NCBI GenBank assembly: GCA_017519865.1
Contig: JAFWRQ010000019.1
Coordinates: 1 to 45,791, forward strand
DNA: 45,791 bases
Direction: 5' to 3'
Source of the DNA: Bacteroidales bacterium
Lineage (GTDB): Bacteria; Bacteroidota; Bacteroidia; Bacteroidales; UBA932
Made by a program: the position numbers and the translations under genes. Under the pieces are notes generated by a model, which searched no databases, was not told where the DNA came from, and was given only the letters and a program-made list of their open reading frames with translations. Positions 13,484-15,963 of this stretch are shown one piece after another. The number at the start of each line of letters is the position of its first letter. Position 1 is the stretch's first letter.

Positions 13484-14068
13484 ATGCACAAGTTTCTCGT
13501 TTTCGCAGCATCCCTGCTCCTGCTCGCCTCGTGCGGCGGGAAGACTGCCGATCCCGTCCACGAAGCCATCAAGGGCGAGATCCTCGGCAATATGGACAGG
13601 CAATTCTCCGATGTCAGTATCAATAAGGTGGAGAAAATCGACTCTACTACTTTCAGGACCGAGCTGGAACGCCGCAAGAAAGTCTTCATGACCAAAAGGG
13701 ACGCGGACAGCGAGCTCCTGATTAAATATATGACTGAGGGCAAGAGGAGGAACGCGGAGATCAAGTCCGAGAGCTATCGCAAGGACCTGCTCATACTCAA
13801 TGGCCTTGACAGCCTCGAATCGGCGATTGCCGGAATCCTGGATGACATCGCCTATTACGACTACCGTTTCAGCGCGGATGCCAAGGGACAGGACGTGAAC
13901 ATGCAGTTCCGTGATGCATACATCTCCATCACTCCCGACGGCAGGGTGATCAGCATGACCGCTGACAGACGCGACCTCCACAAGAGTGCAGGACGCGTCA
14001 TCCCCGGATACTATGAACTGGTGAAGGGAGCAGGGGAGGATGAAGAAGAATCCGAAGTGATCCTCTAA
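13484..14068 (+). CDS. Small secreted lipoprotein, unknown function
   Basis: The 194-residue product begins with a lipoprotein signal (lipobox LASC, Cys17 followed by GG), so it is predicted to be lipid-anchored in the envelope. The mature part is charged and mostly helical, with a lysine- and arginine-rich middle (about 60-95), an YYDYRFS segment and an acidic tail. No known domain is recognised. The open frame extends upstream of 13484, but the ATG at 13484 gives a complete lipoprotein signal and lies after the tRNA terminator. No clear promoter separates it from that terminator, so readthrough may drive it. It converges with the PriA-like gene and the stop codons overlap. Confidence 0.75.
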   Translation: MHKFLVFAASLLLLASCGGKTADPVHEAIKGEILGNMDRQFSDVSINKVEKIDSTTFRTELERRKKVFMTKRDADSELLIKYMTEGKRRNAEIKSESYRKDLLILNGLDSLESAIAGILDDIAYYDYRFSADAKGQDVNMQFRDAYISITPDGRVISMTADRRDLHKSAGRVIPGYYELVKGAGEDEEESEVIL

Positions 14069-15909
14069 ACCGGATCCACGTCCAGGGTGACGTGCCCGGT
14101 GTACTTGCAAGACTGTTCGAAATCGCCGATGATACCGGCGATTTTTCTTTTTGCAGCGGGCAGGTTCCTGTCCTTCGGGAGCATGATGCGGACCACGCGT
14201 ACGTCCTGCTCGGGCTCGCGGCCGCGGAACGGGGCGAACGGGCCGTCGGGGACGAAGTCCCTCAAGGCGGCCGCCAGCAGCCCCGACAGCTTCGCAAGCC
14301 GTCCGGCGTTGGAGTCCCTGACTATGACGTCCACCATCCTCGTATACGGCGGGAAATGGAATGCCTTGCGCTCTTCCAGCAGGCGGAACGCATAGTCGTC
14401 ACCCTGGAGATAAACCGGATGCTGCCCCTGGCGTGTCTGTACCAGCATGTGCCCGGGCAGCCTGCCCCTGAACTGCTCCAGGGTCTGCATCGCCTTCTCG
14501 TCCGCCCTGAAATCGTGTTTGTCCAAAAGTATGTCGGAGTTGAGGATTGCCAGCAGCGAGATGTCCGATATGTCCTTCCTGCGTGCGTCGTGGACTGTCG
14601 CATATCCTATCCCTTCCGATTTGTCAGGGAAGATGCCCTCCAACTGCTCCCTGATGTCGTCCATCGGCCCCCATGGCCTTAGGATCAGGACTTTGCCACC
14701 ATCTTCCAGGGTTTCTTTGATCCTGGCTATCAGTACCCGTGAGAGGTCTCCGACTATACCGTGTTTCCTGGCTTCGACCGAGGTGTCCACGATCTCCATC
14801 GCGCCCTCTTCCAGAGGCGTGCGTACCAGGGAATACCTCCCGGAAATGCAGTTGTACAGGGACTCCAGCGATGGAGTGGGGGAGGACAGGATCACCCTGG
14901 CTCCGTGTATGCTGCCCAGCATCACGGCCGTATCGCGCGCCCCATAACGCGGAGTCCCGTCCTGCTTGTAAGCGATATCGTGTTCTTCCTCCACTATGAC
15001 GAGCCCCAGGTCCTTGAAAGGCAGGAACAGTGCCGAGCGTGTCCCCAGGACCAGCCTCGGCCTGTCGTTGCATCGGAGGATGGTGGCGACCTCACGGCGA
15101 TTGCCGGCCGATTCGGCCGAATGGAATACCAGTACGGCATCCCCGAAGGCTTCGTACAGCGTTGCCTGCAGCTTCTTGCTCAACGCGATCTCCGGAACGA
15201 GCATCAATACGTTCCGCCCTTCTGCCAATGTCGAACGCGCTGCATCCACGAGTATGCCTATCCTTGACGCCCCTCCCTGCACCAGCACCGTTTTCCCTTT
15301 CGAGAACACTTTCTCCACCTCACCGGGCGCTTTCCCTTCATTGCCGCCCCCGGCTCCTGCCGGCATATCCATCGTCTCCAGTTTCTCACGGACTTCCTTG
15401 AGTTCCGCCAGGATCCTGTCCCTTCCGGCTTCCAGCTTCGCGGTAACCTTGGCGTTATGCCGTCCGGCAAGCGCCGCCTCCTTCTTTGCGAGGCGCTCCT
15501 CAAGTGCGAGGATACGCTTGCGGTAGAGCTCCTCCGTGCGCGCTTTCATCAGTTCCCGCCGTTCCTCGGCCCTGGCGCGGACCTCCTCGCCGGCAGTCTT
15601 GGAGGCGGGATAAGCCATCTTATAGACCTCTCCGATGGTGCAAAGGTAGTAATCCGAGATGAAGCGCCACAGCTCCAGCTCCTTCTCCCCGATCGGGTCC
15701 ATATGCCGCTCCACTGCGTTGACGGCTAGGATCCTGCTGCGGTCCACATCCGGCTCGACGCCGGTCTCGCTGACCACTCCGGTATACTTCCTGCCGGAGA
15801 ACGTTACGTTCACGCGCATCCCCTTCCGGACCTCCTCCGAGATCCGGTAGCACGGCTCCCAAGCCAGCTTCAGCGGCAGGATGACCTTTATGTATTTATC
15901 CTCGTCCAT
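14065..15909 (-). CDS. PriA-like primosomal protein N' lacking ATPase motifs and zinc domain (probable pseudo-helicase)
   Basis: The 614-residue protein is clearly homologous to replication-restart helicase PriA. The N-terminal 3'-DNA-binding region, LLVPEIALS-like block (LMLVPEIALSKKL), HSAES, LGTRSALFLPF, the DEAH-like box EEEH (307-310), KQDGTPRYGARD and the C-terminal domain (FHFPPYTRM) are conserved. The motifs for ATP hydrolysis are gone: Walker A GxTGSGKT reads QGGASRI (211-217), motif III GSATPS reads SSPTPS (342-347), the eight-Cys zinc domain is absent near 410-425, and motif VI GRAGR reads GRLPG (482-486). An Ala/Glu/Arg-rich coiled coil fills about 105-180. The frame is intact, so this looks like a maintained DNA-binding pseudo-enzyme rather than a decaying gene. 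I chose the ATG at 15909 because the further ATG (15939) sits inside the terminator of the preceding gene. Confidence 0.85.
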   Translation of the reverse strand: MDEDKYIKVILPLKLAWEPCYRISEEVRKGMRVNVTFSGRKYTGVVSETGVEPDVDRSRILAVNAVERHMDPIGEKELELWRFISDYYLCTIGEVYKMAYPASKTAGEEVRARAEERRELMKARTEELYRKRILALEERLAKKEAALAGRHNAKVTAKLEAGRDRILAELKEVREKLETMDMPAGAGGGNEGKAPGEVEKVFSKGKTVLVQGGASRIGILVDAARSTLAEGRNVLMLVPEIALSKKLQATLYEAFGDAVLVFHSAESAGNRREVATILRCNDRPRLVLGTRSALFLPFKDLGLVIVEEEHDIAYKQDGTPRYGARDTAVMLGSIHGARVILSSPTPSLESLYNCISGRYSLVRTPLEEGAMEIVDTSVEARKHGIVGDLSRVLIARIKETLEDGGKVLILRPWGPMDDIREQLEGIFPDKSEGIGYATVHDARRKDISDISLLAILNSDILLDKHDFRADEKAMQTLEQFRGRLPGHMLVQTRQGQHPVYLQGDDYAFRLLEERKAFHFPPYTRMVDVIVRDSNAGRLAKLSGLLAAALRDFVPDGPFAPFRGREPEQDVRVVRIMLPKDRNLPAAKRKIAGIIGDFEQSCKYTGHVTLDVDPV

Positions 15910-15927
15910 CCTAACGCGAATATAACG

Positions 15928-15963
15928 AAAAAAGTGCATCTCCCTGCCGGGGGATGCACTTTT
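15928..15963 (-). terminator. Intrinsic terminator of the OmpA-like lipoprotein gene
   Basis: Arms 15931-15944 and 15949-15962 form a long stem around a 4-nt TGCC loop. On the minus strand the stem is followed by a T run (complement of 15928-15933). It lies 17 bp after the stop codon at 15980 and includes the distal ATG of the PriA-like frame. Confidence 0.85.

Follow-up and report, generated by a model that had tools for sequence, protein, structure and literature searches.

PriA without a helicase motor or zinc region: apparent recurrent loss in a family of Bacteroidales

Introduction

The protein discussed here, 614 residues long and encoded on a Bacteroidales contig of 45,791 nucleotides (JAFWRQ010000019.1 of assembly GCA_017519865.1; the whole contig was analysed and is called the window below, its genome being G000), is the cell's own PriA orthologue and, with a probability that we put at about 0.6, a helicase turned into a passive platform that recognises forks and reloads DnaB. 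By its sequence, the protein keeps the 3′-binding domain, a large part of helicase lobe 1 and certain C-terminal residues; the ATP site, the eight-cysteine zinc region (CRR) and one half of lobe 2 have gone, and this change took place several times in one Bacteroidales family. The loss of motor and zinc domain on several separate occasions, in a gene still under selection, suggests that the motor is not what these cells need PriA for.

What the helicase of PriA is for is an old question: Escherichia coli is viable without PriA helicase activity, yet the motifs are well conserved among bacteria (PMC4504706). Lineages that have repeatedly lost the motor, standing beside sisters that keep it, amount to a comparative test of the helicase's purpose. 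Such a comparison would reveal the residues on which selection still acts once PriA need not unwind DNA, in other words a minimal restart core, and the absence of the CRR puts to the test the idea of this domain as mainly a gate and wedge.

The window protein

The gene lies on the minus strand. From its first ATG the open frame spans 14065–15939 (624 aa); the ATG at 15909, common to two relatives (L032 and L033), is the better start and yields the 614-residue protein (MDEDKYIK...; 14065..15909, stop codon 14065–14067), in agreement with the 614 open codons noted in an earlier reading of this DNA made without database searches (the sequence-only reading). Its genome gave no other PriA match. 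Judged by E-values of 7.5e-60 (TIGR00595, priA) and 2e-72 (NF004067), its homology to PriA is beyond doubt, although its scores miss the curated cut-offs (202.9 against 230.35 bits and 244.7 against 763 bits, respectively). NCBIfam PRK05580 matches at 2e-72 and the best match among PriA chains of the PDB has an E-value of 7e-37; being single-copy and nested among the PriAs of its genus, the protein is placed as an orthologue. Pfam recognises PriA_3primeBD (PF17764; 2.2e-17, residues 8–101) and, partially and below its cut-off, DEAD (1.5e-4); Zn_ribbon_PriA, Helicase_C and PriA_C have no Pfam match in it.

The 3′-binding domain (residues 1–105; 15595..15909, minus strand, as are all features below) is kept, by both the PF17764 match and column conservation, and is followed by a linker, delimited by comparison of linker lengths, of roughly residues 106–204 (15298..15594), where E. 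coli PriA carries its winged-helix domain. The sequence-only reading held that Walker A, motif III and motif VI were all changed, and this is indeed what motif reading finds: Walker A is reduced to QGGASRIG (residues 211–218; 15256..15279), with Arg216 in place of the lysine, motif III to SSPTPS (342–347; 14869..14886) and motif VI to GRLPG (482–486, in the context FRGRLPG; 14452..14466), the next two arginines of ordinary relatives being gone; motif V (GTQ..KG) has disappeared too. Motif II reads EEEH (307–310; 14980..14991) against mostly DEEH, with a few DEEN or DEEQ, in ordinary relatives, so the same reading's view of a preserved EEEH box is right for the third glutamate, invariant in 44/44 stripped proteins, and wrong for the first residue, which is itself altered from D to E. 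The protein thus lacks the intact set of SF2 helicase motifs (I, II, III, V and VI), and with Arg216 and EEEH it has the marks of a PriA pseudohelicase of the Deinococcus kind at the Walker A lysine and motif II.

The missing zinc region was likewise correctly seen: ordinary relatives have eight cysteines there and the window protein none, the deletion site of the CRR and part of lobe 2 lying at about residues 411–415 (RPWGP; 14665..14679). A refinement of that reading is that helicase lobe 2, too, is reduced to about half. Beyond the deletion come the DFRADE box (466–471; 14497..14514), with the invariant residues R468 and E471, and a C-terminal domain of about residues 501–614 (14068..14409; ending DVDPV) that column conservation reveals below the level of Pfam PriA_C detection.

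Distribution of the stripped form

In the genus, 61 genomes were searched with TIGR00595 and the proteins were then inspected for motifs. Ordinary PriA was found in 28, a CRR-less form, here called stripped, in 25, and no typeable PriA in 8 (G007, G015, G021, G022, G025, G032, G036 and G048); incomplete copies are included in these counts (G002 and G010 as ordinary, G051 as stripped). The two forms are mutually exclusive in 53/53 genomes with a typeable PriA, and the search for a canonical PriA that the sequence-only reading had proposed for the window's own genome, 75% complete as assembled, matched no second PriA. A renewed search of the eight untypeable genomes with an alignment of stripped proteins retrieved only a contig-end fragment in G022, which together with G032 makes up the two of the eight that are more than 90% complete. 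PriA may sometimes be dispensable in this genus.

Among 249 genomes drawn from the family, priA scores were low throughout four further genera, g12 (3/3), g13 (1/1), g18 (4/4) and g22 (13/13), in which stripped forms were then found. All proteins of g12, g13 and g18 (that of G114 incomplete) and 9/13 of g22 were inspected, and they lack the CRR, save G081, whose frame stops before the CRR site. PF18319 is absent from 24/24 members of one alignment (A1) and from four further stripped proteins, and present in 3/3 ordinary ones; the 3′-binding domain PF17764 occurs in 24/24 members of that alignment. In all, 47 stripped copies from 47 genome records were handled, 44 of them in a single open full-length frame; two are cut by contig ends (G051 and G114) and one is spread over two frames (G081). 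PriA is split between frames at two loci, L168 (G286, of the ordinary kind by motifs I–III) and L185 (G081, stripped), through sequencing error or a real break. One genome outside the genus, G279, holds one PriA of each form on separate contigs, in which we suspect mixed binning.

At wider scales, 238/247 genomes of an order draw and 294/296 of a phylum draw exceed the TIGR00595 cut-off; this is by score alone, and passing the cut-off does not equal having intact motifs, as three genomes of the family f79 (one well over, one just over and one under it) all lack Walker A. The phylum misses are G000 and G664; the nine order misses are G000, six genomes in which no PriA match reached 1e-15, G517 with a piece at the end of a contig, and G465. 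In G032 (91% complete), G069 (95%) and G135 (94%), no PriA of either kind was found.

How often the motor was lost

A species tree was built from seven ribosomal proteins and a UvrC-like protein, for 63 genomes, 28 of them stripped. Gaps kept out G128, G011, G034, G027, G009 and the window's own G000, and G001, G004, G040 and other genomes missing the ribosomal locus are also absent; G030, a relative that groups with the window in the gene tree, is included. The UvrC-like frame was matched in 34/69 ribosomal loci. In G016 (L136) the S10 ribosomal operon apparently breaks after rpsC, with frames resembling UvrC and a proton pyrophosphatase downstream of it.

This tree needs seven changes of state, six of them forced by well-supported branches, and a single origin of the stripped state appears in 0/200 bootstrap trees. 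In AU tests, a single clade of all stripped genomes is rejected at p 7e-103 and one of the genus's stripped genomes at p 7e-48, and the unity of five genus members is allowed (p 0.28). The PriA gene tree, built without the motif and CRR columns from 88 rows (G002, G010, G114, both rows of G286, G081, G061, G244 and both rows of G279 having been dropped), needs five changes, three of them forced. In it the stripped proteins mostly fall with their own lineages: g18 and g22 stand together, g12 beside g6/g19, and five stripped genus members inside a subgroup that also holds ordinary genus PriAs, while a further 24 stripped proteins include the window's and G072 is placed without resolution.

From the two counts – seven changes with six forced, and five with three forced – we estimate at least three loss events, and probably five to seven. 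The counts are blind to direction; the changes are read as losses, regain of the motifs together with eight cysteines being implausible. One ancestral loss is rejected on the species tree and, moderately, on the gene tree (AU test, p 0.025). The sequence-only reading took the window protein for an unusual case and asked whether the motif loss might be clade-wide; the change is neither a single case nor one that swept the whole clade at once, the loss being recurrent on both trees and found in 25/61 genus genomes and four further genera.

Order of loss and the linker

Complete enough for this comparison were 89/98 PriA rows (dropped: G002, G010, G114, two rows of G286, G081, G061, G244 and G051). 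Both CRR and the Walker A GKT/S are present in 45 and neither in 42, two (G054 and G072) lack the CRR and keep GKT/S, and a CRR without GKT/S occurs in none of the 89. Since the intermediates are of the one kind and never the reverse, the CRR probably goes before the motor in this family. The extent of the loss varies: lobe 2 is mostly kept in length in the CRR-less g18 proteins, G019 and G072, and also in g13, whereas it is much reduced in g22 and in the majority of the genus. That order is not a law, as f79, a family of the same order, went the other way. Its proteins (L192, L194 and L195, from G380, G465 and G537) have eight CRR cysteines, lack Walker A and carry an altered motif VI in 3/3 genomes drawn, a second, differently ordered lineage of motor loss in Bacteroidales.

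In ordinary PriAs the linker measures 130–201 residues in g8, g14 and g17, 42–165 in the genus and 46–66 in nine other outside genera sampled. It is 201 residues long in G067 against 46–50 in G075, G074, G064 and G078, all of which have the main motifs; the winged-helix stretch thus seems to have shrunk across much of the family independently of the motor. Going by these lengths, the winged-helix domain seems to be missing from the window protein too. Since many of the family's ordinary PriAs likewise have a short linker, this loss is probably separate from, and older than, that of the motor.

Selection and conserved residues

Estimated by the crude method of Nei and Gojobori (NG86), dN/dS is 0.08–0.30 in 19 pairs of stripped genes, with dS above 1 in 11 of them; among 12 ordinary pairs, three are saturated and the nine unsaturated ones give 0.10–0.25. 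These codon comparisons, which the sequence-only reading had called for, indicate purifying selection on the stripped genes, albeit under constraint that may be somewhat relaxed, four stripped pairs standing at 0.29–0.30. The stripped frames, of 492–675 codons, are open across deep divergence.

Retention was scored in 28 stripped genus proteins and 15 of other genera, at those columns in which 31 ordinary genus PriAs show a conservation of 90% or more. In the 28, the canonical residue is kept on average at 96% in the 3′-binding domain (21 columns) and at 74% in the C-terminal domain (24 columns), against 35% for the Walker A columns (lysine in 7%) and 0 to 4% for the CRR cysteines; the 15 keep 64%, 59% and 33% in 3′-binding domain, C-terminal domain and Walker A, respectively. 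At the Walker A lysine position, 30/44 stripped proteins have Arg and 8/44 Lys. Ten residues – E309, K315, R325, R468, E471, Q491, R514, P521, R524 and D612 – are invariant in 44/44 stripped and 44/44 ordinary proteins, E309 lying in motif II and the other nine outside the motifs read. Residue 358, a candidate position of the SSB tip-binding pocket on which no claim here rests, is Lys or Arg in 41/44 stripped and 43/44 ordinary proteins; one paper searched for the pocket's residue numbers did not give them. Low dN/dS, open frames and the recurrence of the same kept residues together support the suggestion, made from the window alone, of selection for a non-helicase role.

Stripped species have slightly smaller estimated genomes, the median over 25 of them being 2.41 Mb and that over 28 ordinary ones 2.59 Mb (p 0.018, on sizes that are mostly rounded and with kinship ignored), a difference too slight for genome reduction to be accepted as the cause.

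Proposed role and alternatives

The CRR of E. coli PriA acts as the wedge for unwinding, forms a pore wall and docks PriB (PMC10175261), and in DNA-free (apo) PriA it covers the DnaT site as a movable gate (PMC13377028); primosome assembly persists in E. coli when PriA is ATPase-dead (PMC4504706). On the simplest reading, restart in the family would need PriA only as a fork-recognition platform. Stripped PriA would bind abandoned forks through its 3′-binding domain and its lobe-1 and C-terminal surfaces and recruit DnaB, with DciA, without unwinding; deletion of the CRR would leave the loader site permanently open, and the ATPase, then without use, would decay. Fork binding and DnaB loading without ATPase or unwinding activity are the predicted properties. 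The lower conservation of the C-terminal domain (0.74) than of the 3′-binding domain (0.96) counts against such a scaffold. A replacement loader specific to stripped genomes was considered and rejected, as DciA (50/50 genomes of both PriA kinds) and DnaB (49/50, 47 over the cut-off) do not differ between the kinds; no DnaB was found in stripped G047 (95% complete), and its near relative G023 carries one. A bolder version, which we advance tentatively and would not bet on, is that the family repeated one experiment several times (at least six by the species tree), removing the CRR gate and then the motor and leaving a constantly open fork-recognition core, one that would load the replicative helicase with no remodelling; the retained invariant residues would in that case make up the minimal module of replication restart, shared by PriA with and without a motor.

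Other explanations fit parts of these data. Stripped PriA might have become an accessory or regulatory protein, bound to forks or SSB and no longer loading DnaB, and the loss of the CRR would indeed take away the PriB dock that PMC10175261 describes for E. coli; we find this doubtful, as the stripped form replaces ordinary PriA rather than accompanying it and identical core residues are kept with and without the motor. It is unlikely, too, that the stripped genes are long-lived relics of a priA slowly becoming dispensable: the long branches of many of them in the gene tree, the four pairs at 0.29–0.30, the eight genus genomes without a typeable PriA and the slightly smaller genomes all point that way, but full-length frames have survived deep divergence, dN/dS lies far under 1, and lineages that lost the motor independently share one set of invariant residues.

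A single ancestral loss, after which the stripped gene spread horizontally, would agree with the only moderate gene-tree rejection of one clade, the unsettled place of G072 and the position of G035, whose PriA groups with stripped ones in the gene tree although its neighbour in the species tree is an ordinary-PriA species. It is made very improbable by the lineages that, despite the pull of long branches, are placed close to their own relatives and outside the main stripped group (g18 with g22, g12 and the five genus members), and by the different amounts lost (lobe 2 mostly kept in g13 and g18, but not in g22 or in the majority of the genus). Hardly credible is an artefact of assembly or binning, however fragmented many of the drafts (up to hundreds of contigs) and despite the two forms in G279, given 47 stripped copies in 47 genome records, graded in divergence and, in all 19 pairs compared, held by purifying selection; nor do relatives all show canonical motifs at this gene, the outcome that the sequence-only reading had named as a sign of assembly error or decay.

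Comparison with known systems

Actinobacterial PriA is described as lacking the helicase motifs, its cysteines being kept, and would share with the stripped proteins the loss of the motor motifs. The f79 proteins are alike in having lost Walker A and changed motif VI within an open frame; unlike stripped PriA, they keep all eight cysteines, the reverse order of loss. In the literature on PriA, judged by titles and the openings of abstracts, no description of a CRR-less PriA was found. Motor-dead PriA as such is already known, from Deinococcus; the literature so searched gave no account of a motor lost repeatedly and along with the CRR. E. coli PriA K230R resembles the stripped proteins in being ATPase-dead, and itself keeps primosome assembly, but is a laboratory point mutant with its other domains unchanged (PMC4504706). 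A natural parallel in the same source is the PriA of Deinococcus radiodurans, an ATPase-dead fork binder with degenerate Walker A and B, no ATPase or unwinding activity, fork binding kept and evidence of DnaB binding (PMC4504706). Like it, the window protein has exchanged the Walker A lysine for arginine, at residue 216. The stripped PriAs have also lost the CRR along with half of lobe 2, probably a difference from the Deinococcus protein, and in their case the change was repeated within one family.
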